Shown one piece after another: positions 231-43,912 of a stretch of 43,912 nucleotides of DNA. The position numbers and the translations under genes are program-made. Positions within the stretch are counted from its first letter, which is position 1. Each line of letters opens with the position of its first letter. Source of the stretch: a virus; IMG/VR virus record IMGVR_UViG_3300044612_000631, positions 1 to 43,912 of that record; one strand, written 5' to 3'. The notes beneath the pieces are model-generated. The model had not been told where the DNA came from and did not search any database. It saw nothing but the letters and a program-made list of their open reading frames with translations.

Positions 231-367
231 ACATGGTCGAATGCCCAGAGTGTGGCGAGGAGTATCCACCTGTGGCAACACATTGGATTTGTCCAGCGTG
301 CGGCATTGATGATAAGTCACAGCCGAAGATGGCGGTGTTTGAATTGAGGGATTATGGCGACAACTAA
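227..367 (+). CDS. 46-residue zinc-ribbon protein
   Basis: This small protein has two CxxC pairs (C6/C9 and C22/C25, counting from the GTG), the pattern of a zinc ribbon. Its target is unknown. I chose the GTG at 227, which overlaps the preceding stop as GTGA. The nearby ATG at 233 is absent from the other version of this locus (40212-40352), where the codon is TTA, while the GTG is kept. The 3' end overlaps the next gene by 14 bases. Small zinc ribbons near terminase genes are common in phages, but no function can be assigned. Confidence 0.7.
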   Translation: MNMVECPECGEEYPPVATHWICPACGIDDKSQPKMAVFELRDYGDN

Positions 368-671: not shown

Positions 672-693
672 GTAACGATTCAGGAGAACATAT

Positions 694-1065: not shown

Positions 1066-1076
1066 GGTCATCTTAG

Positions 1077-4229: not shown

Positions 4230-4245
4230 CGAATTGGGCTATTAG
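4227..4245 (+). promoter_or_regulatory. Recurrent TAACGAA-TGGGC intergenic motif
   Basis: The stop codon TAA begins TAACGAATTGGGCTATTAG, just before a GTG start. Close variants occur at 6260, 11277, 15679, 39760 and 43667. The role is unknown. A TSS placed by the TATTAG as a -10 box would fall inside the next gene. Confidence 0.4.
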
Positions 4246-4246
4246 C

Positions 4247-4414
4247 GTGAAGAAACTCCTATCCGAAATCCATGCTTTGACTTGGACACTTGCAGGCACC
4301 GGTATGGTGCTTATTACGCTGTCTGGGCAAACCAAGATTTTGGGTTGGGGAATCACCGTAATAGCCGTGATAATCCATTTACTCGGCGTAATGTTCAAGG
4401 AGAACAATGAATAA
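4247..4414 (+). CDS. Small two-helix membrane protein, holin-like
   Basis: The 55-residue product starts at GTG and contains two hydrophobic segments (about 12-28 and 31-49) separated by a short turn, with a charged tail. That is the layout of small class II holins, which form the membrane lesion that releases the endolysin. No family signature confirms this. The 3' end overlaps the next gene by 8 bases, and that gene is also holin-like, so the two may act as a holin/antiholin pair. The right version (43687-43854) differs by one visible residue. Confidence 0.65.
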   Translation: MKKLLSEIHALTWTLAGTGMVLITLSGQTKILGWGITVIAVIIHLLGVMFKENNE

Positions 4415-4676
4415 GGCAAAAGATATTGCAGGCAGAATTGTTGCACTTTTCCTCACCAACGCCCTCGGCGTGGTGACTGGTGCTGCAGTAATTGCTCCAG
4501 ACCTAGAAGTCTGGAAGTCAGCATTGATTGCTGGTGCTGTATCCATCTTCAAGGTTGCTGAGTCGCTTGCAAAAGCAAGCATTGATGGTGTTCTCACCAA
4601 AGATGAAATTGACGCAGCATTTGGTGCAACTCCTAAAAAGATTGCAGCCAAGAAGGCAGCCGTTAAGAAGGCATAA
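4407..4676 (+). CDS. r1t-type holin-like protein
   Basis: This 89-residue protein has two hydrophobic stretches (about 12-30 and 36-50) with a tryptophan between them (EVWKSALIAGAVSIFK). That resembles r1t-family holins of Gram-positive phages. The C-terminus is Lys/Ala-rich (PKKIAAKKAAVKKA), as expected for a cytoplasmic tail. It follows another small membrane gene with an 8-base overlap and is coupled to large terminase by TAATG. The endolysin lies far downstream at 26941, so lysis genes are split in this genome. Confidence 0.65.
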   Translation: MNKAKDIAGRIVALFLTNALGVVTGAAVIAPDLEVWKSALIAGAVSIFKVAESLAKASIDGVLTKDEIDAAFGATPKKIAAKKAAVKKA

Positions 4677-26940: not shown

Positions 26941-27462
26941 ATGGCAAAGCGCAAGTACACGGGAAACAAAGACGGGGCTGCAAAGAGTTTGCGCCCCGGC
27001 ATGAAAGTGTTTATCAACGAAGTAATCAAGTTGAGTAATGGTGCACTTTGGAATAATGGGGACTGGGGTGTAAGACCAATGAGAGGCAAGGAGTCGCTCA
27101 GCGTCCACGCAACGGGGCGAGCAGTTGACTTGTCGTACCGCCACATGCCACCAAAGAAGGGCAAGAAGAACGGTCGTCAAGAAGCAGTACGTGTGCTTGA
27201 CATTATTGTCGCCAACGCTGAGGCGTTGGGCTTAGAAGCAGCGTTTGATTATTTTACAAAGCCACATGGTCGTGCTTGGATGTGTGACCGTGGTAGTTGG
27301 CTTGTCTACAAGAAAGAAACTATTCATGGGGGTGGTTCGGGCGACTGGCTTCACTTTGAAATCTCACCTGAGATGGCTGATAACCCTGAGAAGGTGAAGC
27401 AGGCTTTTGCGAACTTGGTGATTCCTGCGGAGAGTCCGAAGAGTCCTGAAGAGCAACAGTAG
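26941..27462 (+). CDS. M15-family peptidase, probable endolysin
   Basis: The 173-residue protein shows the zinc-peptidase pattern SVHATGRAVDLS (H56, D63) and the later DWLHFEI (H138). These are the metal ligands of M15 D-Ala-D-Ala carboxypeptidase / L-Ala-D-Glu endopeptidase enzymes. It would cut peptidoglycan stem peptides at lysis. There is no signal peptide, so it would depend on a holin. It is the last rightward gene. Its 3' 143 bases are overlapped by a leftward gene. Confidence 0.88.
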   Translation: MAKRKYTGNKDGAAKSLRPGMKVFINEVIKLSNGALWNNGDWGVRPMRGKESLSVHATGRAVDLSYRHMPPKKGKKNGRQEAVRVLDIIVANAEALGLEAAFDYFTKPHGRAWMCDRGSWLVYKKETIHGGGSGDWLHFEISPEMADNPEKVKQAFANLVIPAESPKSPEEQQ

Positions 27463-30254: not shown

Positions 30255-31275
30255 AAAGGTTTCCCTGCTGATATTGAAGAGGCAACGCTCCGTTCAGGTC
30301 AGTCAGTCTTCCTGTGCGTGGGTCTAACTCAAAGTCAATGTCGTCAACAAGTTGTCCTGCTGGTCGCTTGTTCTTGAGTAGTGACACGGTGACTGTGTGT
30401 TCATGGATTCGAGCCTCATGACGCAGATAATCCAATCTGTCCTGTGCTCGCTCTGAGTGTGAACGGTCAAGTTTCTCAATCAGTTCATTTATCTCCGCAG
30501 CAATTTGATACTTCTTGCGACGGACACCAATGATTGATGTTGCTTGTTGTTCACCACCATACGAACCTGAACTCATGGTCATCTTCTTCCCATCAGCACC
30601 TGCGGTGCGTGATGTTTGGTGTAGCACCAACATTGGAATGTCATGACGCCGACCAAACCCTTTGAGGAATGTCGCTTTGTCGGGTACGGTTTCGCCTGCT
30701 TCTACCAAATCTAGATAGTCAACGACTATAAGTTCAGGTACTTGACCCCACACATCACACACCTCGTTGTAGGCACGTTCCATGTCGGATGAAGTTAGTG
30801 GCTGGTCAAACACGGCAAGATGAGGAAAGTCTTCCTCTGCTGTACGGCGTAGCAAGTCAATGGCTTCTTTATCATCGGCTGCTACTCGTGCTTCCAGTTC
30901 TCGTGCATCAATTCCATGATGCATACAGGCGAGTTTGGTCAATACGAGTTGGCGAGGCTCGTCAGGTATGAACATTGCAATGTGTTTGTCACGATTGTTG
31001 CGGAGTGTGTGCAACAGTAAGAGTGTCTTACCGCCGTGTGCAAACCCCAACATCATGGCAATTTCGCCCGGTGCAATGCCTCGTAGTTCTTTATCTATCT
31101 GGTTGATACCAAGATGTACACGGTCTTGCGGTGACTGTGCCCAACGCACGAATGAGTCGGCTGCTTCCGAAAGTGGTGTGTACATTCTGTAGTCAGAAAG
31201 AGAAGGTGGGGCGACAGCGGATTGTCGCCCCACCATTTCCCAACCAGCAGATATTTCTTCTGCTGACAGTCTCAT
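30247..31275 (-). CDS. DnaB-like replicative helicase
   Basis: The 342-residue RecA-fold ATPase has Walker A GFAHGGKT (77-84), Walker B LIVVDYLDL (182-190) and the HQ motif at 219-220, as in the C-terminal domain of DnaB. The N-terminal primase-binding domain of bacterial DnaB is missing or greatly reduced, normal for compact phages. It would unwind the fork beside the adjacent AEP primase. Confidence 0.85.
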   Translation of the reverse strand: MRLSAEEISAGWEMVGRQSAVAPPSLSDYRMYTPLSEAADSFVRWAQSPQDRVHLGINQIDKELRGIAPGEIAMMLGFAHGGKTLLLLHTLRNNRDKHIAMFIPDEPRQLVLTKLACMHHGIDARELEARVAADDKEAIDLLRRTAEEDFPHLAVFDQPLTSSDMERAYNEVCDVWGQVPELIVVDYLDLVEAGETVPDKATFLKGFGRRHDIPMLVLHQTSRTAGADGKKMTMSSGSYGGEQQATSIIGVRRKKYQIAAEINELIEKLDRSHSERAQDRLDYLRHEARIHEHTVTVSLLKNKRPAGQLVDDIDFELDPRTGRLTDLNGALPLQYQQGNLYE

Positions 31276-31715
31276 TACTTGGCTCGTGGTGGCCAGTAAG
31301 CCTTCTCAGCATCTACTGCCTTGAAGGAAGGTCGCTTTGGATTTGCTTCCAAACCGTCACGGTTGTCGTACACCTTGCTTACACCATCACGCTTGCACGC
31401 TTTGATGAGCCACTCTGGAATTGGACCGTGTTGCTTGCCAACAATGGTTACACCTGTGAATGGTGCTGGGCTTGCTGAAGTCACAACTTGTGTTGCACCC
31501 AACTCTTCCTTGATTTTCTCAACGATGTAGTTGTTCTGCTCAATTGCTGTTGCTTCTGCCTGTGCACCATAGATGGTTTCCATCATGATGTTGTTGATTG
31601 AATCAAACAAGAGTGCGAACTCACCGAGTTTCTCGGCTGTGCCTGCGCTCTTGTCTACTAAGTCAGCGGAAATCTTTGCTGACACTTGGGTGATGATTGC
31701 TCTGTCCTTATCCAT
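31275..31715 (-). CDS. Hypothetical replication-operon protein, 146 residues
   Basis: Helical N-terminal half (AEKLGEFALLFDSINNIMMETI) and a C-terminal part with GPIPEWLIKACKRDGVSKVYD. It lies between the Cas4-like nuclease and the helicase, coupled to the former by TAATG. It may be a single-strand-binding or recombination mediator by position, but no fold is identified. The ATG at 31715 has a GAGGC ribosome site. Confidence 0.65.
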   Translation of the reverse strand: MDKDRAIITQVSAKISADLVDKSAGTAEKLGEFALLFDSINNIMMETIYGAQAEATAIEQNNYIVEKIKEELGATQVVTSASPAPFTGVTIVGKQHGPIPEWLIKACKRDGVSKVYDNRDGLEANPKRPSFKAVDAEKAYWPPRAK

Positions 31716-32584
31716 TAGTTTGCCTCCTCGGCATTTGTTGTGTCGCTCCCAATTAGAGAGCCTTTGCATTTTGACCAGACTGGACACCAACGCTGTGAGC
31801 AGAGGTGATGCTGGTCGTTCATGAGCCATCGTTGTGATGGCAAATGACCTTGTGCCAATAGTACGCTATTGACGAGTGCTGTTGTCTGAGTTGTAATCCA
31901 ATTGTCATGTTCTTCTGTGCGTGTCACGTTCACTATCTGACCGGTTGATGAAGCATTACGAATCATCACACCAAAGTTGAAGTTCACTGTGTAATCAATC
32001 AACCCAAGTCGGGTTGCAGCGCAAGCGTAAACAGACGACTGAATGTTCTGTGATTGCTTCTCGGCTTCGTAATACTTTCGAGCCGCAGTCTTCCAGTCCC
32101 AAATGCTTTCGGGGTGAAAGTAATCCATTGTGCCTTCGTACCAAAGTTCGTACTGCCACAAAGAGTTCTCCACCTCGGCAACCTTTGCCTCAAACTTGAA
32201 CTCAGGTTGTCCACCTAGAGGAACATGGGGGTAGATATCCCTAGCCCATGCTTCCGCCATAGATGCAATGTGTTTGTCCCAGTTCTTCGGGTCTGTGTTG
32301 GTGATGTTGATTTCCTTGCCCTCAGCAAGTAGGTGTTGTTCCTTGGAACGAAACGCCCACACCGAGCGTTCTGCAATGTCTCGCACATCAATCTCTTCAC
32401 GCAGGACATTTTCAATACCAGCGTGGACTGCTGTACCCATCATTGCTGAGTCGTTCTCACGACGCTCTTCGGGGTAAAGGGCTGTCAGCCTTGCACGTTC
32501 AGGACACATGAGTGCGTCCCCAAGCCAAGACTGTCGGACATAAATCCTGTCCACTGATGTTCCATTATCGTTTTCTATTCGCAT
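31715..32584 (-). CDS. Cas4/RecB-like nuclease with iron-sulfur cysteines
   Basis: The 289-residue protein has the PD-(D/E)XK residues H54 (GTAVHAG), D154 (EGTMDYF) and D163-W-K165. Cysteines C27 and C262, C267, C273 are spaced as in the Cas4 4Fe-4S site. Phage relatives act as 5'-3' exonucleases in recombination. There are no other CRISPR genes here. The ATG at 32584 with AGAGAAG is preferred to an upstream start that runs through the leader hairpin. Confidence 0.82.
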   Translation of the reverse strand: MRIENDNGTSVDRIYVRQSWLGDALMCPERARLTALYPEERRENDSAMMGTAVHAGIENVLREEIDVRDIAERSVWAFRSKEQHLLAEGKEINITNTDPKNWDKHIASMAEAWARDIYPHVPLGGQPEFKFEAKVAEVENSLWQYELWYEGTMDYFHPESIWDWKTAARKYYEAEKQSQNIQSSVYACAATRLGLIDYTVNFNFGVMIRNASSTGQIVNVTRTEEHDNWITTQTTALVNSVLLAQGHLPSQRWLMNDQHHLCSQRWCPVWSKCKGSLIGSDTTNAEEAN

Positions 32585-32707: not shown

Positions 32708-32729
32708 AAGTGAGATAGTTATCTCAGTT
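32708..32729 (-). promoter_or_regulatory. 22-bp palindrome, copy 1
   Basis: Reads AAGTGAGA-TAGTTA-TCTCAGTT on the rightward strand, one mismatch from the common palindrome. It lies two bases beyond the transglycosylase stop and upstream of the nuclease-primase operon. On the rightward strand six T follow it. Confidence 0.75.
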
Positions 32730-32731
32730 TT

Positions 32732-33151
32732 TTATAGACCCCACGGACCAAATCCGTTGCCATATCGGGCGTCTGCATAGTTGTAAATAGCAAGTGCTGA
32801 CCTCAGGTTGCGCTGAGGACCAAAGAGCCCTCCAGAACGCTTCACAATGCCTCTAGAAGCCAGCCACGGCGTCCAGAAGCCATTGATTTGCACCAAGCCC
32901 CTAGAACCACCCATTGGGTCGTCTGTGTTGTGCTGAGCAGGGTCACACCTGCTCTCACGCCACATCAGATAATCCAATGTCGGTAGTAGCGACTCACGCC
33001 AACCTACATCAACAGCGGTTTGCCACCACTGAGGACACAGGGCAGAGGCAGAAATATCCACCGGCTCTGGCATGTCGTGCTTCGTAATAGAAGTGGGGGG
33101 CACAACGCCCCCCACACCTAATGAAACTGAGATAAGTATTTTTGCTAACAA
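32732..33151 (-). CDS. Lytic transglycosylase-like protein with signal-like N-terminus
   Basis: The 139-residue protein matches the SLT lysozyme fold. It has YLMWRESRCDP (catalytic E66), GSRGLVQIN (82-90) and an AIYNYADARYGNGFGPWG C-terminus. The first 20 residues are hydrophobic, so it may be exported. It would cut glycan strands. Its place in the leftward block rather than with the endolysin is unusual; it could remodel the wall early or be a virion protein. The TTG start at 33151 has an AGGGGG ribosome site. Confidence 0.8.
   Translation of the reverse strand: MLAKILISVSLGVGGVVPPTSITKHDMPEPVDISASALCPQWWQTAVDVGWRESLLPTLDYLMWRESRCDPAQHNTDDPMGGSRGLVQINGFWTPWLASRGIVKRSGGLFGPQRNLRSALAIYNYADARYGNGFGPWGL
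33093..33115 (-). other. Strong hairpin inside the transglycosylase gene start
   Basis: A perfect 9-bp stem GTGGGGGGC / GCCCCCCAC with a 5-base loop lies about 36 bases downstream of the TTG start. It could slow ribosomes or polymerase and so limit expression. Confidence 0.55.
33125..33146 (-). promoter_or_regulatory. Half-site of the 22-bp palindrome
   Basis: The left half AACTGAGATA is intact, but the right half is degenerate (TTTTTGCT). It lies within the first codons of the transglycosylase gene. It may be a weak or decayed copy, or a chance match. Confidence 0.3.
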
Positions 33152-33154
33152 GTG

Positions 33155-33376
33155 TTACCCCCTTAGTGCTTCCAATAGGACTTCTTCCATCTCTTGCTTT
33201 GCAGATAGAAGTTCTTCCAACTCAGCATGAGTTGAGTCGGCTCTCTTACCATCACCGAGACGCTGGGTTTTCTTTGCCAGTTGGTCTACGCCGATAGCCA
33301 GAGACTTGACGACAGCACGTAACTCAGAAAGAGTTAGTGTCACCTCAAGGGTTGGTTCATCTTTGCGATTACTCAC
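33155..33376 (-). CDS. 73-residue charged helical protein
   Basis: Mostly helical and charged (LSELRAVVKSLAIGVDQLAKK, AELEELLSAKQEMEEVL). Likely coiled coil. It overlaps the upstream gene by 4 bases and is followed four bases later by the transglycosylase. Function unknown. Confidence 0.65.
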   Translation of the reverse strand: MSNRKDEPTLEVTLTLSELRAVVKSLAIGVDQLAKKTQRLGDGKRADSTHAELEELLSAKQEMEEVLLEALRG

Positions 33377-33900
33377 GGTAGTTGCCTTTCATTCTGAATA
33401 GATGCTGATTTCATTGCACGAACAATGTCGTACATGTCTTGCATGGCACTTGCTAATGAGCCCATTGCGTTACCTTCGTCGTATGTAACGGCTTCTTCGT
33501 CCGTAAATCGGATAGAAGAACCCATTTTTCCGTTGTGGCACATTGTCATGAGACGCACACGCCTACGCTCAGGGTGTTGTGATGGTGCAATCTCATCTGC
33601 ATCATCTCCCTTCTTGATTGGTGCAGCCCAACCACAAGTAACAACAGCAAAGCCATTGTAACCAGAGTCAAACAACAACACAGCGTTGAATGTGTCGTCA
33701 AGCATTTCGTACACATCAGCATGTTCTGCAATCTTTCTGATTGCTGGAACTTCACCACGAACATAATCAACAGCAAATAATATTGCGTTGCCTAGGTCAA
33801 ATGGTTCTGTTGTGTCGCTTTCTACTTTGCTTGCTATTGCTTGGTCAATCTCTTGCAGAGTTTGTCCAAACTTTTCTGAATAGTTGATTGGTGTGTTCAT
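33373..33900 (-). CDS. Hypothetical 175-residue protein
   Basis: Mixed alpha/beta protein with FDLGNAILFAVDYVRGEVPAI and a conserved-looking NGFAVVTCGWAAP core. No motif is recognised. It is coupled by 4-base overlaps to WhiB upstream and to the coiled-coil gene downstream. Confidence 0.65.
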   Translation of the reverse strand: MNTPINYSEKFGQTLQEIDQAIASKVESDTTEPFDLGNAILFAVDYVRGEVPAIRKIAEHADVYEMLDDTFNAVLLFDSGYNGFAVVTCGWAAPIKKGDDADEIAPSQHPERRRVRLMTMCHNGKMGSSIRFTDEEAVTYDEGNAMGSLASAMQDMYDIVRAMKSASIQNERQLP

Positions 33901-34148
33901 TTCTTTTTATTCTTTCTGTAGTCGGCTTTGCCGTTGGTTAGTGTTATTCCACCCCAAATGCCCCATGAGTTGGTTGCCTTGCCGTAAGCGAGGCACTCAA
34001 CTTTTAGTGAGCATTCAGAGCAAATTGCTTTTGCTTGCTTCCATTCTTTCATTTTCTGTTTGGTTGGTGGCCATTCTGGAAACCACCACACAGTTGGCTG
34101 AGACTTACAGTTTGCTTCTGTAAAGTCTATCGTCACAGGCTCAAACAT
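33897..34148 (-). CDS. whiB: WhiB-family iron-sulfur transcription regulator
   Basis: The 83-residue protein has four cysteines (C14, C43, C46, C52), ICSECSLKVEC as the CxxCxxxxxC core, the GIWGG turn at 63-67, and a Lys-rich DNA-binding tail. WhiB proteins bind a 4Fe-4S cluster and the host sigma factor. They are found only in actinobacteria and their phages, which makes this gene the best evidence for the host. It could redirect host transcription or block superinfection. Confidence 0.92.
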   Translation of the reverse strand: MFEPVTIDFTEANCKSQPTVWWFPEWPPTKQKMKEWKQAKAICSECSLKVECLAYGKATNSWGIWGGITLTNGKADYRKNKKK

Positions 34149-34674
34149 CTGAGCCTGCTGTCAATCGGTTCTGAATAACCCTGAGCACTTTCTCCGCAAT
34201 CTCGTTAGAAAGATTGCTAGTCATTGACTCAACTTTCTCATTGACCAATTCTCTAACGAATGATGCGCTCACTGTTTCACCAATGTTCACCTGTACTTGA
34301 TTGTTCACCATGTTTCTGAAACGGTTGTTGTTCATGAGGTGGCGAAGAAACGCTTCGTTCTCCCACAACGGTGCTGTCAAGTCAATGAGTTGCTGATAAT
34401 CAAGGTTGCTACCAACCTCACTAATTATCTGTGAGTAGTCAATGCTTTCCAGAACCCAGTTACGCACCTTGCGTGTGTATTCCCGGTCTTCTTTGATGTT
34501 CTCAGACACATCATCAACAACCATCTGTAAGTTTGGGATACGACCGTTTACTTGTCGTTCCACTTCCTCAATGATTTGTGTTTCCATTGACTGACTGAAT
34601 AGTGATGGCATTGAGGCACTGTCTACAGATACCTCAAATTCCATTGTTGATGGGATTAGTTTGATTGTTGTCAC
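34141..34674 (-). CDS. Hypothetical 177-residue helical protein
   Basis: Helical, acidic at the N-terminus, with NNNRFRNMVNNQVQV and a C-terminal amphipathic helix. The GTG start at 34674 overlaps the previous stop as GTGA and has an AAGGAG site. It precedes whiB with an 8-base overlap. Function unknown. Confidence 0.65.
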   Translation of the reverse strand: MTTIKLIPSTMEFEVSVDSASMPSLFSQSMETQIIEEVERQVNGRIPNLQMVVDDVSENIKEDREYTRKVRNWVLESIDYSQIISEVGSNLDYQQLIDLTAPLWENEAFLRHLMNNNRFRNMVNNQVQVNIGETVSASFVRELVNEKVESMTSNLSNEIAEKVLRVIQNRLTAGSDV

Positions 34675-34820
34675 TTGCTTTCTCCTTGTGTGTTTGTTTC
34701 TGTTTTGAGTGAGTCAGGAATGAGGTCATCAAATGTGACTTCATTCAGTCGGATATTGTTTTGTGCAAACCCTCGCTGAAATGCAGCGAGGTAGTATGCG
34801 TACCGCTCTTCTTGGTTCAT
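34671..34820 (-). CDS. 49-residue hypothetical protein
   Basis: Begins MNQEERYAYYLAAFQRGF and has an AGGAGA ribosome site. It starts seven bases after the amidotransferase-like gene ends. The stop overlaps the next gene as GTGA. Probably a real small gene; no family is recognised. Confidence 0.65.
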   Translation of the reverse strand: MNQEERYAYYLAAFQRGFAQNNIRLNEVTFDDLIPDSLKTETNTQGESK

Positions 34821-34827
34821 GTTTCTC

Positions 34828-35838
34828 CTAGTTGTAACTTGGGTGTGTGGTTGTTTGAGTTGGAATGACTACGGCATTGGCTTCGTAGATATCCTCATTG
34901 AATGCTTCCAAATCGTAGATTTGGTAGATGGCTGACCAACATGCACATGGATACTGAGCACCACAGAAGTGGCAACCACCGCATTGGTCACAGTGTGTTT
35001 CTAGAACACCATCTGGTGTCTTGTGTGCGTGAGCACAGTTGTAACACTCAATGAGTTGTGTGGTGTCATCAATGTGAGTAGTGAACACATCGAACTGTTG
35101 CATCTGCTCTTCTGCAAGATACTCAAGTTCATCGTCGTAGTCAGGAATGTACAAGCCTGCATCAGTCTTGTTGTCCCACGACGAAGCGTATGTGGTCTTG
35201 TTGTAGCCATAGTCCCAGTCGTCGTAACCCCAAAGACTGCCACTTGACTTGTATGAAGTGGAAGTGTAGGGCTTGTAAACAACTTGCTCGTATGAGTAGT
35301 TAGACCACCACATGTCCTTGTCCCAGTGACCAGACTTCTCGTTGAGAATATACCAGTCTTGCTTGGCTTCATCATTGACGGTGAGGAATACCAACTTAGA
35401 ACCAGTAGCCCATGCTTCTAGTTTCTTGTAGTACTCATCATCATCAAGTGATGTGATGCCACCAACACTAGGCATGATGTCTTGCGCAAACACTTTTGTG
35501 TCCGAACGCACATCACCCTTTGGTATTGCTACTGGAAGTATGCCGTTGTGACCAACGACTGATTGGCTGTCTTTGCCCAAGAAGAATGGGTGACAGTTGG
35601 CAACAGTCTCGCTACCGTGGGTTGCCCAACGGAAGTGGAAGATTGCAGGACCATTGTGTGTTGGTCGCAAGTCAATGAACTTGTTTGCAACATCATCAAA
35701 GTTCATGCTGTGATAAGTCACAATCTTCTTGCCTGTTGATATTGCGAAACCAAAGCCATCTGGATTTGCTTTCGCTGCTGTCCTGAACCTGTCCATGTCT
35801 GGAGAGACATAATCAGGAATGAATGTTAGTAAACACAT
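34828..35838 (-). CDS. Class II glutamine-amidotransferase-like protein with C-terminal Cys module
   Basis: The 336-residue protein begins with the nucleophile Cys2 (MCLLTF). It shows NPDGFGFA (25-32), FHFRWATHG (67-75), NCHPF (81-85) and VVGHNGIL (94-101), the motifs of Ntn-hydrolase glutamine amidotransferases. Residues 180-250 are Tyr/Trp/Asp-rich. A Cys-rich module follows (C265, C268, C283, C286, C289, C292, C298, C300). It would release ammonia or cut a gamma-glutamyl bond for the neighbouring amidoligase. That pairing is known for the amidoligase family. Confidence 0.82.
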   Translation of the reverse strand: MCLLTFIPDYVSPDMDRFRTAAKANPDGFGFAISTGKKIVTYHSMNFDDVANKFIDLRPTHNGPAIFHFRWATHGSETVANCHPFFLGKDSQSVVGHNGILPVAIPKGDVRSDTKVFAQDIMPSVGGITSLDDDEYYKKLEAWATGSKLVFLTVNDEAKQDWYILNEKSGHWDKDMWWSNYSYEQVVYKPYTSTSYKSSGSLWGYDDWDYGYNKTTYASSWDNKTDAGLYIPDYDDELEYLAEEQMQQFDVFTTHIDDTTQLIECYNCAHAHKTPDGVLETHCDQCGGCHFCGAQYPCACWSAIYQIYDLEAFNEDIYEANAVVIPTQTTTHPSYN

Positions 35839-35886
35839 ATTGTGTTCCTTTCTTTGTTTGTTGTTTGTTGATTTGTGATGTTAGGA

Positions 35887-35908
35887 AACTGAGATACATG
35901 TCTCAGTT
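35887..35908 (-). promoter_or_regulatory. 22-bp palindrome, copy 2
   Basis: AACTGAGA-TACATG-TCTCAGTT. It overlaps the amidoligase stop codon and lies 49 bases upstream of the amidotransferase-like start, giving that gene its own element. Confidence 0.8.
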
Positions 35909-36961
35909 GTCGTCACCGTGAGAAGAGCAACGCTCTGCGATACGGTCAGACAGAATGGAATAACGCTCTTGCGTCTTGACCCATGAACGGAATGAACGGA
36001 ACGCCAAAGCGTTGCCAGACATAACTCTCTGAGTGTTGCACTCTGTCTCGGTGTAAGTGAAGACTGCATCACAGAACTGCAAAGCAGCCTGAACAGTCTT
36101 AGGGTTGAGTGATGGCTTGAAGAAACGCAACTCAACAGTGTGGCGGTTCTGCAAGTTCACAGCACAGTAACGCTCGTGGTTGCGTTCCTCGTTCTTAGCG
36201 AACTTCATCAACGAGGAAGTTGTACGAGTGACATAGTTGCCATCGTCGTTGTACTCATTCCATGAGTTGAGGAAATAAGCCTTGTCAAAGTTAGCCCAAC
36301 GCTCGCTGTCACGACCTGCGAAACGCTTCACATCTGCAGAGTTATCAAGTATCAACTTGAAGAACTTGAATAGATGCTTTTCGTCTCGGAATGCAGAGCG
36401 TGACAAGTGAACATGCAGACCACATGTGCTTGTGTCCCACGACTTGCAACCTTTCTTGATTAGACCAGAGATACCGTTCCAATCAAAGTGATTAGTTGCA
36501 AAGCCCAATGTCATTGGATGCGAAACAATCTCGAACCCATGATTGAGTGAGCCATCTTCTTTGAGATACACAACATCATTGTGTTGCGTGTTGATTGTCT
36601 CAAGCACAAAGCGTGCACAATCTTCACGAGGGAAACGACCTGTCTCCAACTCCAACTCAAAGCCCATGTACAAAGATGTACGGCGTGAGTTGGCACTGTC
36701 GGGAACAGTTGCGTAGTACGACTTGTGACCGTCGTCGTTGAGGAAGATTGCAGTTGGCTTGGCAGAGTAAGACATAATCAAACTCTCGCTTTCCTCATCT
36801 TCCTCGTTCTCCACTTCCATTTCGCAGACGAAATCCTCATTGCAACCGCAACAGCGGTAATTGCTGTCCCAATCGTTGCTATAAGCGTCGTCTTGCTCTA
36901 TTGTGTCACCACAGTTGTAGCACTCAATATATGTTGTATCTTCTTCTTCACTTGCAGGCAT
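35903..36961 (-). CDS. Putative amidoligase with N-terminal Cys module
   Basis: The 352-residue protein matches the Amidoligase_2 (COOH-NH2 ligase) family: GFELELE (100-106), KEDGSLNHGFEIVSHPM (134-150), CGLHVHLSR (180-188) and AVNLQNRHTVELRFF (267-281). These are the ATP/metal-binding blocks of a glutamine-synthetase-like fold. A zinc-ribbon-like module (C14, C17, C37, C38, C40, C46) precedes it. The family joins an amine to a carboxylate, so peptide or cell-wall modification is plausible; the substrate is unknown. The ATG at 36961 has a near-perfect AAGGAGG site, although the frame stays open to 37060. Confidence 0.85.
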   Translation of the reverse strand: MPASEEEDTTYIECYNCGDTIEQDDAYSNDWDSNYRCCGCNEDFVCEMEVENEEDEESESLIMSYSAKPTAIFLNDDGHKSYYATVPDSANSRRTSLYMGFELELETGRFPREDCARFVLETINTQHNDVVYLKEDGSLNHGFEIVSHPMTLGFATNHFDWNGISGLIKKGCKSWDTSTCGLHVHLSRSAFRDEKHLFKFFKLILDNSADVKRFAGRDSERWANFDKAYFLNSWNEYNDDGNYVTRTTSSLMKFAKNEERNHERYCAVNLQNRHTVELRFFKPSLNPKTVQAALQFCDAVFTYTETECNTQRVMSGNALAFRSFRSWVKTQERYSILSDRIAERCSSHGDDN

Positions 36962-36990
36962 GATGCCCTCCTTGTTTGTTGTTTGTTTAT

Positions 36991-37057
36991 GTGTCCCACA
37001 GCCTAAGCCGTAGGCGAGAATGCACCAATGTATGGGGGACACCGATGCACTCTCGCC
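36991..37057 (-). other. Structured leader with possible pseudoknot before the amidoligase
   Basis: In the leftward transcript, bases 37057-37044 pair with 37026-37013 as a 14-bp stem with two G-U pairs. The 17-base loop contains GTGTCCC (37042-37036), which is complementary to GGGACAC (36997-36991) downstream. That could form a pseudoknot just upstream of the ribosome site. A competing CCTA/TAGG hairpin also exists. Confidence 0.5.
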
Positions 37058-37063
37058 CACGCA

Positions 37064-37085
37064 AACTGAGATACATGTCTCAGTT
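37064..37085 (-). promoter_or_regulatory. 22-bp palindrome, copy 3
   Basis: AACTGAGA-TACATG-TCTCAGTT, with one extra matching base on each side. It lies 14 bases past the previous gene's stop and about 100 bases upstream of the amidoligase start. Confidence 0.8.
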
Positions 37086-37099
37086 TGTATGAGCGTTGC

Positions 37100-37276
37100 T
37101 CACGCAACTTGTTCTGCGTTCACATCACCTGCTTTCTGCAATGCAAACTCTAACAGTCTGCGTTGGTAATCTCGTTCTTCTTGTGACTGATTGTATGCCT
37201 TGACCATCTTCCATGCGAACTCAACGAGTTCATCTTTCTTCATTGCATACAGGGCTTGCTTGCTTGTCTTATTCAT
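37100..37276 (-). CDS. 58-residue hypothetical protein
   Basis: Starts MNKTSKQALYAMKKDELVEF; charged and helical with a QEERDYQRRLLEFALQK helix. The ATG overlaps the previous stop (ATGA) and an AGAAG site precedes it. The family is not recognised. Confidence 0.65.
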   Translation of the reverse strand: MNKTSKQALYAMKKDELVEFAWKMVKAYNQSQEERDYQRRLLEFALQKAGDVNAEQVA

Positions 37277-37419
37277 TTCTTCTCCATTTCTTCTGTTAGT
37301 TCTGCAATTTGCTTGAGCAGACGCTTGTTCTCTTCTTGCAACAACTGAATGTCAGTCTCTGCATTGTCTAGTGTTGCTCTGATTTGCTTGAGTTGCATCT
37401 TGATGTAACTACTTGTCAT
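37273..37419 (-). CDS. 48-residue coiled-coil protein
   Basis: A leucine-rich coiled coil (LLQEENKRLLKQIAELTEE) fills the C-terminal half. The ATG at 37419 has an AGGAGAA site and overlaps the previous stop as ATGA. A 14-residue upstream extension is open but has no ribosome site. Confidence 0.65.
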   Translation of the reverse strand: MTSSYIKMQLKQIRATLDNAETDIQLLQEENKRLLKQIAELTEEMEKK

Positions 37420-37637
37420 TTCTGTTCTCCTGTTGTGTATGTTTCTGCTTTTCCATTGCAATCATCTGGCTGAACAACGCCAGTGATTGCGTACAAACTG
37501 CCGAACTTGCTCATGAGATAGTAGTTGTACTTGTCATCAGTCAAGAGATTGCCCTGAAGCATCATCTTTGTGATGAAGAACCAACTGTCCCCCCAGTTCT
37601 TGCCGTTTCGATAGTGTTGTTTGATTTGCTGTTTCAT
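37416..37637 (-). CDS. 73-residue hypothetical protein
   Basis: Starts MKQQIKQHYRNGKNWGDSWFF, rich in aromatic and polar residues. It is the first gene after the palindrome at 37677 and begins a three-gene chain joined by ATGA overlaps. Function unknown. Confidence 0.65.
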   Translation of the reverse strand: MKQQIKQHYRNGKNWGDSWFFITKMMLQGNLLTDDKYNYYLMSKFGSLYAITGVVQPDDCNGKAETYTTGEQK

Positions 37638-37676
37638 GTCTGTTTCTCTTTCTGTTTGTGTGTTTATGTGTAGTGG

Positions 37677-37698
37677 AAGTGAGATAACTATCTCAGTT
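37677..37698 (-). promoter_or_regulatory. 22-bp palindrome, copy 4
   Basis: AAGTGAGA-TAACTA-TCTCAGTT, one arm mismatch, overlapping the stop of the membrane gene at 37693 and 40 bases upstream of the ATG at 37637. Confidence 0.75.
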
Positions 37699-37848
37699 CC
37701 AGTCCTTGTTTGTTGGGTGATTACGCATTACCCATTGACGAGACATGTGCATATCTCGCTCTGCTTTCTCGTAGCCGTACTCAAATGCAAAGCCCCACAC
37801 AAGTAGGACAACAATGAGTGCAGTTGTAAATAAGCCGAACCAATTCAT
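37693..37848 (-). CDS. 51-residue single-span membrane protein
   Basis: One hydrophobic helix near the N-terminus (LFTTALIVVLLVWGFAF) is followed by a charged tail ending RNHPTNKDWN. Its ATG overlaps the end of the preceding gene. Its TGA lies within the palindrome. It could be a superinfection or membrane-stress protein; no family is recognised. Confidence 0.65.
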   Translation of the reverse strand: MNWFGLFTTALIVVLLVWGFAFEYGYEKAERDMHMSRQWVMRNHPTNKDWN

Positions 37849-38063
37849 TAGATACTCCATTCTTGATTAGGAAAACGAGGTGTTACGCCTACATCTTCTT
37901 TGCTAATACGCTTCTCAATAGTAACAATGTCAGTGAATTGGTCAAGCAAAGCAAGAACTTCTGCAAGTTCATCTCTCTTGTTGATTATCTGTGAACGCAA
38001 ATCGTAAGCACGATTACTTAGTGCCTCAAATGTGTCCTTGTTCTTACGGAATGGATTACGCAT
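37848..38063 (-). CDS. 71-residue coiled-coil protein
   Basis: Helical and charged (FEALSNRAYDLRSQIINKR, ELAEVLALLDQF). An AGAGGTAAAG site precedes the ATG. First gene after palindrome copy 5 and a long leader hairpin. Function unknown. Confidence 0.65.
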   Translation of the reverse strand: MRNPFRKNKDTFEALSNRAYDLRSQIINKRDELAEVLALLDQFTDIVTIEKRISKEDVGVTPRFPNQEWSI

Positions 38064-38115
38064 TTCTTTACCTCTTTCGTTTGTATGTATATCTGCTCAC
38101 ACTGTGTGAACATGA

Positions 38116-38149
38116 CGCAACACTATGCAGGGGGCTACATAATGTTGCG
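38116..38149 (-). other. Long leader hairpin after palindrome copy 5
   Basis: The leftward transcript folds CGCAACATTATG against CATAGTGTTGCG, 12 bp with one U-G pair, around a loop containing CCCCC. It lies between the palindrome at 38170 and the ATG at 38063, a layout like the amidoligase leader, whose loop also has CCCCC. Confidence 0.6.
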
Positions 38150-38169
38150 CTAACTCACACAAGAGTTAG

Positions 38170-38191
38170 AACTGAGATAAGTGTCTCAGTT
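38170..38191 (-). promoter_or_regulatory. 22-bp palindrome, copy 5
   Basis: AACTGAGA-TAAGTG-TCTCAGTT. It overlaps the stop codon of the gene at 38190 and lies about 107 bases upstream of the next start. Confidence 0.8.
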
Positions 38192-38654
38192 ATTTCATGT
38201 ACTTGATTACTTCCTGCAGTTGCTTCTTGGTGTACTTCTTGCTCAATGCTTCTGCAGTACGCTTAGCCGAGAAACGGCTAGTGGACTTAGCATTTGCACG
38301 CTGTCCCTCACCGCTCATCATTGCCTTGACGCTTGCCCAAGTTGCGTAGGTGTATTCTTTCTCGCAAGCAATGATTACATTGTCAATGCTCTTGTACTTG
38401 CTCAATGCACGGAGTGCGATTGAGACATTGGTGCGAATGGTGCTGTCGCTGTTGCGTGCTTGACTAGCAACACTTGACGACAATGATGCCTTTGCATACT
38501 CACTTGCATTTACGCCAAGTGTCTTTGCTTCTGCACCTGCACCTAACCAACCTCGCACAACATCTGCCGACCCATTGAGAATGAGTGGCTCGTGCACAAG
38601 ACGGAACTTAGTTACTATCTTCTTGCTTGCTTGCTTCTTTACTTGCTTTGCCAT
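38190..38654 (-). CDS. Basic 154-residue hypothetical protein
   Basis: Lys-rich ends (MAKQVKKQASKK, KKYTKKQLQEVIKYMK) surround a helical core (SADVVRGWLGAGAEAK). The charge suggests nucleic-acid binding. The gene lies between two palindrome copies, so its product is one candidate for a regulator of those sites; there is no direct evidence. The ATG at 38654 has an AAGGAG site. Confidence 0.65.
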   Translation of the reverse strand: MAKQVKKQASKKIVTKFRLVHEPLILNGSADVVRGWLGAGAEAKTLGVNASEYAKASLSSSVASQARNSDSTIRTNVSIALRALSKYKSIDNVIIACEKEYTYATWASVKAMMSGEGQRANAKSTSRFSAKRTAEALSKKYTKKQLQEVIKYMK

Positions 38655-38725
38655 GATGGCTCTCCTTGTGTTTGTATTTGTGTTAGTCGGTAACACGCCG
38701 AGTGATTACTCACTAGCCAAAGCAC

Positions 38726-38747
38726 AACTGAGATAACTGTCTCAGTT
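38726..38747 (-). promoter_or_regulatory. 22-bp palindrome, copy 6
   Basis: AACTGAGA-TAACTG-TCTCAGTT, about 70 bases upstream of the ATG at 38654 and 22 bases past the stop of the preceding gene. Confidence 0.8.
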
Positions 38748-39780: not shown

Positions 39781-40215
39781 ATGAAACAGAACGAAGAACT
39801 CACGCTTACATCACAGCAGCAGGAATATCTAGAGTGGCTTTGTACTGCTCCGTCGGAGCGTCAACCATCCTCAAAAGAAAAGATGGCAGGACACCTTGGC
39901 GTTAATGTCACAACGCTCCGCCGTTGGGAAAAGAAGGAAGTCTTCGTCAACCAATGGAAAACGGCGGTGGACGAAGTTCAGGGGTCTCCTGAGCGCACTC
40001 AGAGACTCCTAGACACGTTGTATGCCAAGGCTCTTGACGGTGATACCAAGTCTGCGCAGTTGTATCTGCAGGCAACGAACCGTATGGCTCCGCCTACGGT
40101 AACGGTTCAGTCTAATAAGAAAGCAGCAGAACTTTCTGATGCTGAGTTGGACTCTTTGATTGCTGCGGTAGCGGAGCGAGAGAAGGCTCAACGCACACAC
40201 TTGAAGGCATTGTGA
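39781..40215 (+). CDS. Small terminase subunit, complete
   Basis: The 144-residue protein has an N-terminal helix-turn-helix of the homeodomain phBC6A51 type (LTSQQQEYLEWL, then SKEKMAGHLGVNVTTLRRWE at 31-50). An oligomerisation-like helical middle and an acidic/basic C-terminus (SDAELDSLIAAVAEREKAQ) follow. It would bind the packaging site and feed DNA to large terminase. This is the first rightward gene after the divergent region and defines the missing part of the gene at 1-230. Confidence 0.82.
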   Translation: MKQNEELTLTSQQQEYLEWLCTAPSERQPSSKEKMAGHLGVNVTTLRRWEKKEVFVNQWKTAVDEVQGSPERTQRLLDTLYAKALDGDTKSAQLYLQATNRMAPPTVTVQSNKKAAELSDAELDSLIAAVAEREKAQRTHLKAL

Positions 40216-40352
40216 GTTTAGTCGAATGCCCAGAGTGTGGCGAAGAGTATCCACCTGTGGCAACACATTGGATTTGTCCAGCGTGCGGCATTGATGATAA
40301 ATCACAGCCGAAGATGGCGGTGTTTGAATTGAGGGATTATGGCGACAACTAA
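40212..40352 (+). CDS. 46-residue zinc-ribbon protein, right version
   Basis: Same protein as 227-367. The GTG start and the GTGA overlap with the upstream stop are kept, while the internal ATG of the left version is replaced by TTA. Cysteine pairs are unchanged. Confidence 0.7.
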   Translation: MSLVECPECGEEYPPVATHWICPACGIDDKSQPKMAVFELRDYGDN

Positions 40353-40656
40353 CGATGCGATGTTTAGCGCTCTTTCGGTAGCGTATCCGTCGACCGGTCA
40401 GACCCTTGGTGACTTGCTGTATGCGTTCTGGTCTGAGAAGGGTTTGCAGTATCGTGGGACTTTGGAGTATGAGTTCTATGTAGCGAACGGTGCTACTGGC
40501 ACAACTTTGGGTGATTTGGCAAATGATTACTTTTCACGGGTTTACCCGTTGGAGTTTGACATACAGAACTTTGATTTCTCTGACCCTGATGAATGGTTGG
40601 AGTTACAAGTATTTAGCCGTGTTGATACGGTTGAACAAGATATTTTTATTGGTTAG
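40339..40656 (+). CDS. Hypothetical 105-residue protein, right version
   Basis: Homologue of 354-671 with changes such as SALSVAYPSTGQ near the start and LQVFSRV near the end. Many of the base differences are synonymous, which shows the two versions have evolved under purifying selection rather than being sequencing noise. Confidence 0.7.
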   Translation: MATTNDAMFSALSVAYPSTGQTLGDLLYAFWSEKGLQYRGTLEYEFYVANGATGTTLGDLANDYFSRVYPLEFDIQNFDFSDPDEWLELQVFSRVDTVEQDIFIG

Positions 40657-40678
40657 GTAACGATTCAGGAGAACATAT

Positions 40679-41050
40679 ATGGCAACTTTTACAAAACTCG
40701 CACTTCAACCAGCAGGCACAACGGGAACAGGTCTTGGCATCAAGGTCGCTGCTACTGCAACTGCTGGTACCGCTATTCACACAGCGTCAGCAACAGCAAC
40801 AACCATTGATGAAATCTGGTTGTATGCAGTTAACTCTTCTGCTTCAGATGTGAAGTTGACAATTGAGTGGGGCGAAGCAACTGCACCAGATGGCAACATC
40901 GAATACACGGTTAAGGCTGAGAACGGTTTATATTTGATTGTTCCGGGTCTTTTGTTGCAAGGCAACGCTACTGCCAAGGTTGTTAAGGCGTTTGCTGCAA
41001 CCACAAACGTTATTGTGATTCACGGGTACGTTAACCGCATCACAGCGTAA
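40679..41050 (+). CDS. Ala/Thr-rich structural protein, right version
   Basis: Nearly identical at the protein level to 694-1065 (two visible substitutions, T to S and R to K) despite several silent changes. Confidence 0.7.
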   Translation: MATFTKLALQPAGTTGTGLGIKVAATATAGTAIHTASATATTIDEIWLYAVNSSASDVKLTIEWGEATAPDGNIEYTVKAENGLYLIVPGLLLQGNATAKVVKAFAATTNVIVIHGYVNRITA

Positions 41051-41061
41051 GGTCATCTCAG

Positions 41062-41967
41062 ATGCCTTCCTTTATTAGAAACACATCAGGTGGTAAAGCC
41101 ATCAGCGGTGGTTCGTTGGCTCCACGTTCACGCCGTGGTAACACTGACCAAGTTAATTCTTACTGGTCTGGCAGTAGTGTTGTTCAATTTGTTACCGACT
41201 ATTTAGTGCTTGCAGGTGGTGGTTCAGGCGGTTCACAGCGTGGCGGTGGTGGTGGAGCAGGTGGATTCCGTACATCTGCAGGAACTACTGGTGGTGGTGG
41301 TGCAGCAGAAGCATCTTTAACACTTGATGTTGGAACCCCATATAGCGTGCAAGTCGGTGGTGGTGGTAGTGCATCAAGCGGTACTAACTCTATATTCAGC
41401 ACGATTACTGCTACTGGTGGTGGTCGTGGTGGAAACAACACAACTGGTATTGAAGGTGGCTCTGGTGGTGGTGCAGGAGGAAACAGCAATACTGCTGGAG
41501 AACGGACAGCATCTCCAGTTCAAGGTTTTGCAGGGCGAACTGGAAACGACAATGTTAGCGGTGGCGGTGGCGGTGCTGGAAGTGGCACTGGTGTAAATAA
41601 AGACGGGGGAACAGGTCTGGCATCATCAATTACTGGTTCATCTGTGAACTATGCAGGTGGCGGTGGTGGTGGTTCAAATAGTGGTTATATTCCGGGATTG
41701 GGTAATGCTTTTGGTGGTGCAGACGGCGGCGGTGGAGGTGACGGAGGTTTAGAAGGAACAGGTGGTAAAGGCGGAGGCGGTGGTGGTCGTGGCGGTAACG
41801 CTTCTGGCAACGGCGCAAACGGTGGTAGCGGTGTTGTTATCTTGCGTTATCCCGATAGCAGAACAATTACTATTGGCGCTGGTCTTACTGGGTCTGAAAG
41901 TGCTGCATCGGGTGGATTCAAACGAGCAACAATTACTGCTGGCACTGGAACTGTGAGTTGGGCATAA
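41062..41967 (+). CDS. Glycine-rich tail adhesin-like protein, right allele
   Basis: The 301-residue protein shares its first 30 or so residues and the ending (TAGTGTVSW/F) with the allele at 1077, and differs almost throughout the glycine-rich part. It lacks the longer segment seen in the left allele. Gly-rich blocks include GGGGGAGGFR and GGGGGGSNSG. Such a pattern suits a receptor-binding tip under diversifying selection. Confidence 0.75.
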   Translation: MPSFIRNTSGGKAISGGSLAPRSRRGNTDQVNSYWSGSSVVQFVTDYLVLAGGGSGGSQRGGGGGAGGFRTSAGTTGGGGAAEASLTLDVGTPYSVQVGGGGSASSGTNSIFSTITATGGGRGGNNTTGIEGGSGGGAGGNSNTAGERTASPVQGFAGRTGNDNVSGGGGGAGSGTGVNKDGGTGLASSITGSSVNYAGGGGGGSNSGYIPGLGNAFGGADGGGGGDGGLEGTGGKGGGGGGRGGNASGNGANGGSGVVILRYPDSRTITIGAGLTGSESAASGGFKRATITAGTGTVSWA

Positions 41968-42317
41968 TGGCACATTACGCATTTTTAGATGAGAACAATG
42001 TTGTCACGGAAGTCATTGTTGGCATTGACGAAACAGAATTGATTGAAGGTTTGCCACCAGAGGAATGGTACGGAAACTTTCGTGGTCAAGTTTGCAAACG
42101 CACTTCATACAACAACAACATTCGCAAACAATATGCAGGTATTGGTTTCACTTATAATTCTGATGCTGATATTTTTATTGCACCACAACCATATCCATCT
42201 TGGTCTTTAGATAGTAATTATGATTGGCAGTCACCATCAAGTTTTCCTACAGATGGTGAGGCTTATTATTGGGATGAGGAATCATTATCATGGGTTCCAT
42301 TTCCAGACGCTGGATAA
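41967..42317 (+). CDS. Hypothetical tail-associated protein, right allele
   Basis: The 116-residue homologue of 2069-2404 has a different C-terminus (YYWDEESLSWVPFPDAG). It overlaps the surface protein gene directly by 28 bases, because no sulfotransferase gene lies between them. An in-frame ATG nine bases upstream (41958) would give three extra residues, but the TAATG-coupled start matches the left version. Confidence 0.7.
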   Translation: MAHYAFLDENNVVTEVIVGIDETELIEGLPPEEWYGNFRGQVCKRTSYNNNIRKQYAGIGFTYNSDADIFIAPQPYPSWSLDSNYDWQSPSSFPTDGEAYYWDEESLSWVPFPDAG

Positions 42318-43669
42318 TCTTTGTTCCAGTAGCCATACTGGCATTGTGGTCAACAGTTGCTAAAGCAGATGGTTTAGGCGACTGGACCGCTTCGCAGTCC
42401 TGCGCCACAGGTTCTGTGAACGTAGTTGAAGACTCGATTGTTATTACAGGGCCTGATGGTGGTGGGTGTCAAGGTATCAACTGGGTAAAGATTGAGACCA
42501 CAATCCCAGAGGGTGTGAATAGTGTTTCGTTCACATGGTCGTATTGGACTACTGATGGCTGGGTCTACGACCCGCCACAGTATGGTGTCAACGGTGTGTA
42601 CACATTACTAACACGGTTGAACCAAGCCACAGGGTCTTTGACGGTTGAAGTAACGGCTGGTGATATATTTACATTCAGACAGTATTCAATTGATTCGTGC
42701 TGTCAGCCGGGTCACTTAACGATAAGCGACCTTTCATTATGGGAATTTACAACAACATCCACGACCCCAACAATGACGATAGTTACTACTACTGTTCCAG
42801 AAACGACTGTCCCTGCCACCAGCACGACTTCTACGACAGTTCCAGAAACCTCAACATCAAGTACGAGTACAACGACGAGTACGACGTCTATTTCAACTAC
42901 GACAACCACGACGACAGTACCAAATACGACAACAACAAGTACGACGACTACAACATCGTCGACGACGACTACTACAACAACAAGTTCAACTCTTCCAGCA
43001 CCCGTTGAAATTTACGTTCCTGAAGCGCCGCCCGAAACAACGACAAGCACCACAGAGTTAGTAGAAGAGGAACCCATTCCAGAGGAGACGCTTCCAGAAG
43101 AAACAACCACGACAGTTGAAGAAGTGACCACAACAACTGAGGAAGTGACCACAACATCTGAAGCACCTGAAGAAACTAGCACAACGGTAGAGCCAAATTT
43201 GGAGCCAGATTTAGAGCCATTGGCTGAAGAAGAAGTAATGGCTTTATTGGCTGAAGCCACAACTGTTGAGGAACTTCAGGAAGCCCTAGAGGAGTTAACC
43301 CCTGAGCAGGTTGAGCAGGTTGTTGACCAGATTCTGGCACAGGAAGAACCACCCACCCCTGAGCAGGCTGTCGCTTTGGCGACCAGCCCAGAGGTGCTCT
43401 CAGTCGTGAGCCCACAGCAGGCTGTTGAAATCTTTGAGTCTTTAGATGTGGCGGAGATAAGCGAAGAGGAAAAGACTGCGGTCACAGAGGCTGTCCAGTC
43501 CGCACCCCTAGAGGTGCGACAAGCATTTGAAGAAACCATTGACATCTTTTCCGACGACTTTGGCGACTATGTTCCACTTGGCTCTGCTGTGCCAGTAGAT
43601 ACCCGTCGCACCCTGATTGCCGTAGCCGCTGGTGCTACAGCCATTGCTGTGTCTTCACGCAGACCGTAA
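42290..43669 (+). CDS. Secreted Thr-rich surface protein, right allele
   Basis: The 459-residue homologue of 2877-4229. The signal peptide (RRWIIFVPVAILALWSTVAKA), beta-rich domain with CCQPGHLTIS, and C-terminal helical part are conserved. The Thr/Ser linker is longer and rearranged. The ATG lies inside the preceding gene, exactly where the left version has the sulfotransferase start. Confidence 0.75.
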   Translation: MGSISRRWIIFVPVAILALWSTVAKADGLGDWTASQSCATGSVNVVEDSIVITGPDGGGCQGINWVKIETTIPEGVNSVSFTWSYWTTDGWVYDPPQYGVNGVYTLLTRLNQATGSLTVEVTAGDIFTFRQYSIDSCCQPGHLTISDLSLWEFTTTSTTPTMTIVTTTVPETTVPATSTTSTTVPETSTSSTSTTTSTTSISTTTTTTTVPNTTTTSTTTTTSSTTTTTTTSSTLPAPVEIYVPEAPPETTTSTTELVEEEPIPEETLPEETTTTVEEVTTTTEEVTTTSEAPEETSTTVEPNLEPDLEPLAEEEVMALLAEATTVEELQEALEELTPEQVEQVVDQILAQEEPPTPEQAVALATSPEVLSVVSPQQAVEIFESLDVAEISEEEKTAVTEAVQSAPLEVRQAFEETIDIFSDDFGDYVPLGSAVPVDTRRTLIAVAAGATAIAVSSRRP

Positions 43670-43685
43670 CGATTGGGGCTATTAG
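43667..43685 (+). promoter_or_regulatory. TAACGA-TGGGGC motif, right version
   Basis: TAACGATTGGGGCTATTAG, the counterpart of 4227-4245. The motif's ends are kept while the middle differs by an insertion/deletion-like shift. Confidence 0.4.
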
Positions 43686-43686
43686 C

Positions 43687-43854
43687 GTGAAGAAACTCTT
43701 ATCCGAAATCCATGCTTTGACTTGGACACTTGCAGGTACCGGTATGGTGCTTATTACGCTGTCTGGGCAAACCAAGGTTCTTGGCTGGGGAATCACCGTA
43801 ATAGCCGTGATAATCCATTTACTCGGCGTAATGTTCAAGGAGAACAATGAATAA
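43687..43854 (+). CDS. Small two-helix membrane protein, holin-like, right version
   Basis: The 55-residue copy of 4247-4414 with a single visible Ile-to-Val change. GTG start and 8-base overlap with the next gene are kept. Confidence 0.65.
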   Translation: MKKLLSEIHALTWTLAGTGMVLITLSGQTKVLGWGITVIAVIIHLLGVMFKENNE

Positions 43855-43912
43855 GGCAAAAGATATTGCAGGCAGAATTGTTGCACTTTTCCTCACCAAC
43901 GCCCTCGGCGTG
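43847..43912 (+). CDS. r1t-type holin-like protein, 5' part only (cut by window edge)
   Basis: First 22 codons of the gene whose full copy is at 4407-4676; identical over the part present. Confidence 0.7.
   Translation, partial: MNKAKDIAGRIVALFLTNALGV

Follow-up and report, generated by a model that had tools for sequence, protein, structure and literature searches.

An amidoligase and class II glutamine-amidotransferase-like gene pair in an uncultivated phage, a possible gamma-glutamyl ligase and hydrolase

The AML and GAT genes and their setting

The window, meaning the whole stretch of DNA analysed here (43,912 nucleotides, IMG/VR virus record IMGVR_UViG_3300044612_000631), carries structural-type genes on its plus strand and a replication/early block on its minus strand. 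The latter assignment is drawn from matches to a primase, a DnaB-like helicase, an exonuclease and RusA. Within this block lie two neighbouring genes, AML and GAT (Table 1). AML encodes an Amidoligase_2 protein and GAT encodes a class II glutamine-amidotransferase-like Ntn protein. The initial annotation of this DNA had named both families and described a phage-encoded pair in an early region; domain matches, folds and near-invariant catalytic residues bear this out, and both genes are intact.

A WhiB-family gene (33897-34148; PF02467, 8.4e-10) points to an actinobacterial host for these uncultivated phages. The transglycosylase that had been noticed near the pair is real, an SLT/lysozyme-like gene at 32732-33151 (SLT_3, 1.5e-6). 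At the end of the late genes, positions 26941-27462 give a weak Peptidase_M15_4 match (0.0049) and may encode an endolysin. The final 3.9 kb (39986-43912) is a diverged second copy of positions 1-4472, with stretches that are 93% and 86% identical, and looks like a wrap-around assembly that joins two strains. PADLOC defence models matched neither AML nor GAT.

Table 1. Features of the AML/GAT locus, the palindrome copies and a related paralogue
Feature	Position	Strand	Details
GAT, class II glutamine-amidotransferase-like Ntn protein	34828..35838	-	336 aa, Met1-Cys2; GATase_4, phrog_25883, GlmS/EgtC fold
GAT catalytic domain	35281..35838	-	Cys2 nucleophile, R70, N98, G99, D113
GAT C-terminal Cys8 segment	34939..35046	-	C265, 268, 283, 286, 289, 292, 298, 300
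AML, Amidoligase_2 family	35903..36961	-	352 aa; PF12224, GS/GCL fold, start common to homologues (MPxS...)
AML catalytic domain	35927..36679	-	Residue conservation and fold match (Z 12.6 to 1tt4)
AML N-terminal Cys4 zinc-ribbon-like segment	36842..36922	-	C14, C17, C37, C40
Palindrome between AML and GAT, overlapping the AML stop codon	35887..35908	.	Exact; position conserved in relatives
Palindrome upstream of AML	37064..37085	.	Exact; position conserved in relatives
Palindrome copy upstream of exonuclease gene	32708..32729	.	1 mismatch
Palindrome copy	37677..37698	.	1 mismatch
Palindrome copy	38170..38191	.
Palindrome copy	38726..38747	.
Shorter amidoligase paralogue in relatives	L003 3134-3940; L010 8732-9547; L021 3145-3957		None seen in window

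AML matches PF12224 with E=4.1e-8 and 33.8 bits, exceeding the curated cutoff of 22. A longer frame is possible from a GTG at 37060; the start is placed at the ATG at 36961 because homologues begin at this same ATG and an AAGGAGG lies ahead of it. In the leader, between the palindrome and the start codon, an imperfect 12-bp inverted repeat (37013-37058, 11 of 12 bases) is visible by eye. A sequence search of solved structures with AML returned only chance zinc-finger matches (E above 0.2), so a fold search was needed. The AlphaFold model, built on 42 sequences, has a pLDDT of 90 and matches YbdK-type ligases and glutamine synthetases with Z scores of 11-12.6, the best being 12.6 to 1tt4 and 12.5 to YbdK; GmaS and, more weakly, PafA are also matched. 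Residue conservation was scored over about 160 unique homologues for each protein. In the AML catalytic domain, E102, E104, D136, S138, E144, H183, H185, R264, N269, E277 and R279 are 98-100% conserved in 162 near-full unique homologues. The GS/GCL-type fold, the acidic/His metal-site residues and the R..N..ExR residues are thus all present in the model. Judged by residues and fold, AML appears to be a catalytically intact enzyme with predicted ATP-dependent COOH-NH2 ligase activity. The N-terminal Cys4 segment, in which C14, C17 and C37 are invariant and C40 is kept in >90% of 42 homologues, presumably binds zinc. Some relatives encode a second, shorter amidoligase paralogue of ~270 aa upstream of the pair, with intact catalytic residues and no Cys4 segment.

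GAT matches phrog_25883 at 1.1e-38 and PF13230 GATase_4 at E=5.9e-5, with 22.6 bits, slightly below the curated cutoff of 23. Its AlphaFold model (35 sequences) has an overall pLDDT of 76, with two low-confidence stretches and values >90 across most of the catalytic domain. In the fold search, the GlmS glutaminase domain (Z 14.1) was tied with EgtC (Z 13.5, 3.9 A over 164 residues), and the PurF glutaminase domain was matched as well. Cys2, following the initiator Met, is kept in 157 of the 157 near-full unique homologues that have a residue there, and the gamma-glutamyl-binding residues R70, N98, G99 and D113 have a conservation of 1.00. By these residues and this fold, GAT appears to be an intact Ntn enzyme, and it may act on gamma-glutamyl amides. 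The folds of both models therefore fit the named families, GS/GCL for AML and GlmS/EgtC for GAT, a point that the initial annotation had set as a test. The C-terminal Cys8 positions are invariant or >90% conserved in 35 homologues, those of Nocardia included, and we infer that this segment binds metal. It is a subfamily feature of GAT, since the OM43 and MW202733 phages lack it. In this group, roughly half of the phage GATs have a conserved THPSY(Y/N) tail at the C-terminus (34828-34860 in the window).

Palindromes of the early region

The window holds six copies of a 22-bp palindrome, AACTGAGA-N6-TCTCAGTT, spanning 32708-38747; 0.29 copies are expected, and six were reached in 0 of 100 shuffles. 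Each gene of the pair had been credited with a palindrome of its own. Exact copies do lie at both genes, but they are not special to them, because four more copies precede other early genes. Relatives in which the early block is present have about 5-7 sites each at corresponding places. Within a genome the arms are uniform, either AACTGAGA/TCTCAGTT or AACTGATA/TATCAGTT, apart from one-base differences at a few sites. An arm switch from GAGA to GATA is seen between related phages (window 32708-38747; L001-L021, L055). The arms follow the genome and not the neighbouring gene, since the AML of one relative (L001) is 91% identical to that of the window, yet its palindromes are of the other arm type.

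Intrinsic termination was ruled out, as no T-run follows the palindromes. They might instead be read as RNA hairpins; against this, the arms are the same in every copy within a genome, a pattern that points to a single trans-acting factor. From these sequence patterns, the palindromes are probably a genome-wide operator set of a phage regulator with coevolving specificity. When genes were compared between the two palindrome types, the gene at 31275-31829 split most cleanly (94-97% versus 60-68%). This candidate regulator has no recognisable domain.

Pairing across phages, plasmids and genomes

The initial annotation had called for a survey of co-occurrence, and the pairing proved tight, counter to the independent occurrence that it had named as a refutation. 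In close viral relatives, AML lies immediately upstream of GAT at every locus with both sides present, separated by -98 to +79 bases. The genes are adjacent at 135 of 139 loci in a wider viral set, the other four being at contig ends. The viral counts are not independent: loci from repeated scans overlap, and in one phage group synteny extends through the entire early block, with most viral loci collinear for about 10 kb. Of 44 loci in bacterial genomes, all from Actinomycetota, 43 have the pair, and the remaining one sits at a contig end.

Unrelated phages (Mycobacterium phage FeliMaine, OM43 phage MEP402, podovirus MW202733, LUZ24 and tf), mycobacterial plasmids and Nocardia elements all have the same order, AML then GAT, and the two genes often overlap at their ends. 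Two pairs in tandem are common at Nocardia loci. Tandem pairs at 19 actinobacterial loci were compared between genomes: the closest AML and the closest GAT in another genome came from one and the same pair in 326 of 345 comparisons. These comparisons are not mutually independent, and about half would be expected to agree if partners were shuffled. AML and GAT distances in these tandem pairs correlate with r 0.84-0.87. This partner fidelity, together with the independent backgrounds, indicates that AML and GAT behave as one unit. A search for a natural AML-GAT fusion found none. Amidoligases are found without a recognisable GAT alongside on C. difficile plasmids, and several close relatives encode a second amidoligase but no second GAT. 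Bifidobacterium phages encode a distant GATase_4 protein and are absent among the amidoligase hits, so distant members of the two families need not occur together.

The tandem AML-GAT-AML-GAT arrays of Nocardia (L201-L238) have integrase, ParB-like and DprA-like neighbours and look to be sited in mobile elements. Further conserved small genes of no known family lie downstream of them (e.g. L210 10289-10987).

Such a pair, in this order and in phages, has already been published for the phiEco32/LUZ24/tf/RIO-1 cassettes, Marvin and the OM43 phages. In LUZ24, tf, UFV-P2, phiEco32 and RIO-1-like podoviruses, Amidoligase_2 precedes a class II GAT in the early replication block, as it does in the window. 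Unlike the LUZ24/phiEco32/RIO-1-type cassette, the window has no COOH-NH2 ligase, ATP-grasp or GGCT gene: LUZ24 queries gave no match above noise, and Pfam gave none among the proteins scanned. The LUZ24 AML has no N-terminal Cys4 segment, and tblastn detected no similarity between it and the AML of the window. Mycobacterium cluster S phages (Marvin gp105/gp106 and relatives) have a two-gene arrangement like that of the window, with the same order and strand and with Cys pairs in both proteins, at about 35% (AML) and 41% (GAT) identity over the aligned parts. Their pair is located near one genome end, and its annotation goes no further than glutamine amidotransferase domain proteins. In the pairs of mycobacterial plasmids and of Nocardia, Amycolatopsis and Saccharopolyspora genomes, AML is again followed by GAT, and the Cys segments are conserved in the aligned genome copies. 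These loci differ from the window in the frequent tandem pairs of Nocardia and in their neighbours, namely integrase, ParB-like, DprA-like, DUF4192 and DUF932 genes.

Candidate chemistry and its alternatives

Enzymes of the superfamily that includes GS, GCL, EgtA, GmaS and PafA activate glutamate at its gamma-carboxylate, and the most likely product of AML is accordingly a gamma-glutamyl amide. Class II GAT-like Ntn enzymes have one of two activities: some supply ammonia to a partner, and others, such as EgtC, hydrolyse a gamma-glutamyl amide. The tie between the GlmS and EgtC fold matches leaves room for an ammonia-supplying GAT.

Other phages offer a further indication. In phage C75C1 (L251 5001-5897), a GAT domain is fused to GGACT, a gamma-glutamylamine cyclotransferase (GGACT 2.7e-21, GATase_4 9.4e-5), and an Amidoligase_2 gene (3.5e-30) lies upstream. 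The fusion is kept in 12 viral contigs (L254-L265) at 49-92% identity, with an amidoligase match upstream in 10 of them; the remaining two are cut near the contig or locus start. Enzyme families and gene order are as in the window; the differences are the fusion itself and small ORFs between the genes. The GAT part of the fusion is only distantly related, with 28% identity over 125 residues. No description of the fusion was found in the literature surveyed, which did not cover Iyer et al. 2009. LUZ24 and tf encode GGCT and a RimK-like ATP-grasp protein within the same block as the amidoligase and GAT, and in Arthrobacter cluster AL phages an amidoligase adjoins AIG2/GGCT (PMC5513430). A bacterial parallel exists in mycobacterial ergothioneine synthesis, where one actinobacterial operon encodes the gamma-glutamyl ligase EgtA, which produces gamma-glutamylcysteine, and EgtC, a class II GAT-like hydrolase annotated as an amidohydrolase and fold-matched by GAT (PMC6154287). 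The window has no EgtB, EgtD or EgtE partners, and the likeness would be one of analogy, not membership. Since GGCT-type enzymes and EgtC-type GATs share the gamma-glutamyl substrate class, a ligase acting with a gamma-glutamyl hydrolase is favoured. Such a cycle, which has about an even chance of being correct, is preferred over glutamine-dependent amidation.

The families, folds, residues, pairing and fusion found here suggest the following scheme for the direction of the reaction, its substrate, the role of the Cys segments and the timing. AML would use ATP to activate the gamma-carboxylate of glutamate and would join the activated glutamate to an amine of some small molecule, peptide or protein. 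GAT, as an EgtC-like Ntn gamma-glutamyl-amide hydrolase, would remove or recycle the gamma-glutamyl group. Between them the two enzymes may add and remove a gamma-glutamyl tag early in infection, in the manner of a writer and an eraser or of protection and deprotection. Docking of the partner or the substrate is the probable role of the zinc-ribbon-like segments, and the operon is probably controlled by the phage regulator at the six palindromes. This explanation as a whole, in which AML and GAT form one functional module of actinobacterial phages and plasmids, is tentative and could nearly as well be right as wrong. Counting against it, GAT matches GlmS at least as well as EgtC, the fused GAT is distant, the window has neither GGCT nor ATP-grasp, and the viral co-occurrence counts are inflated by synteny.

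The main chemical rival holds that GAT frees ammonia from glutamine and that AML uses it to amidate a carboxylate of a metabolite, peptide or stem peptide. All glutamine-binding residues are kept in GAT, the glutaminase domains of GlmS and PurF are matched, and strict 1:1 pairing with partner fidelity suits a physical complex. Amidation is nevertheless unlikely: the cyclotransferase to which GAT is fused in other phages yields 5-oxoproline, not ammonia, amidoligases of other phages occur with GGCT instead, amidoligases without a partner GAT are known from C. difficile plasmids and as second copies in several phages, and no natural AML-GAT fusion turned up. Peptide amidation or tagging had been the original suggestion; amidation is not its best-supported part, given the GAT-GGACT fusion, and gamma-glutamyl ligation with hydrolysis is favoured in its place. 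A still broader idea, with a rather low probability, is that reversible tagging with gamma-glutamyl groups, or with glutamate-terminal peptides, is common to actinobacterial phages and plasmids, the zinc-ribbon amidoligase writing and the Cys-cluster Ntn hydrolase erasing. The mark would be placed on a host protein or amine for takeover or counter-defence, and the fused cyclotransferase would help in other phages.

Cell-wall modification concerns the substrate and is compatible with either chemistry. The pair would alter peptidoglycan stem peptides or another envelope component and so block superinfection or tune lysis. This role was proposed for the phiEco32, RIO-1 and PSA-HP1 phages (PMC5498523, PMC10580990) and restated as fact in at least one later paper (PMC11318856); no experiment supporting it was found in the literature. 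A lysozyme-like gene does lie near the pair in many relatives. The argument is purely contextual, however, and SLT synteny spans the whole early region and is hence not specific. The mycobacterial plasmid pairs adjoin no annotated wall gene, SLT is not listed near them, and the Nocardia element neighbours that were identified (integrase, ParB-like and DprA-like genes) suit a function in mobile elements better than one in lysis. The peptidoglycan link drawn in the initial annotation leans on this SLT gene; none of the analyses tied the pair to peptidoglycan, and a wall substrate seems improbable. Hypermodification of DNA bases or nucleotides through amide-linked side groups would suit the position of AML and GAT within the replication block, as well as the LUZ24-type cassettes that adjoin primase and helicase genes. 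It is very unlikely, because the early proteins scanned include no hydroxymethylase, base kinase, deazaguanine or other DNA-modification gene. Synteny over about 10 kb might also suggest two unrelated accessory genes that are neighbours merely through the shared ancestry of one phage group. That reading is hardly credible: it is already contradicted by the independent backgrounds, in which unrelated phages, plasmids and Nocardia elements keep the same order, and the pairs are duplicated as matched partners.

A literature search found no biochemistry for the AML/GAT subfamily, and the initial statement that substrate and role in phages are not established holds. Pairs of an amidoligase and a GAT are found repeatedly, in phages that infect Actinobacteria or Proteobacteria, in gut phages and on plasmids. 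The window adds a stripped two-gene member of the Cys-segment subfamily in uncultivated phages with a likely actinobacterial host, and the comparisons add partner fidelity and the GAT-cyclotransferase fusion, the latter being the most useful new evidence. Matched-partner conservation and the fusion turn a vague annotation into a specific and cheap test of gamma-glutamyl ligase and hydrolase activity, for which the cluster S mycobacteriophages in M. smegmatis offer a tractable model.
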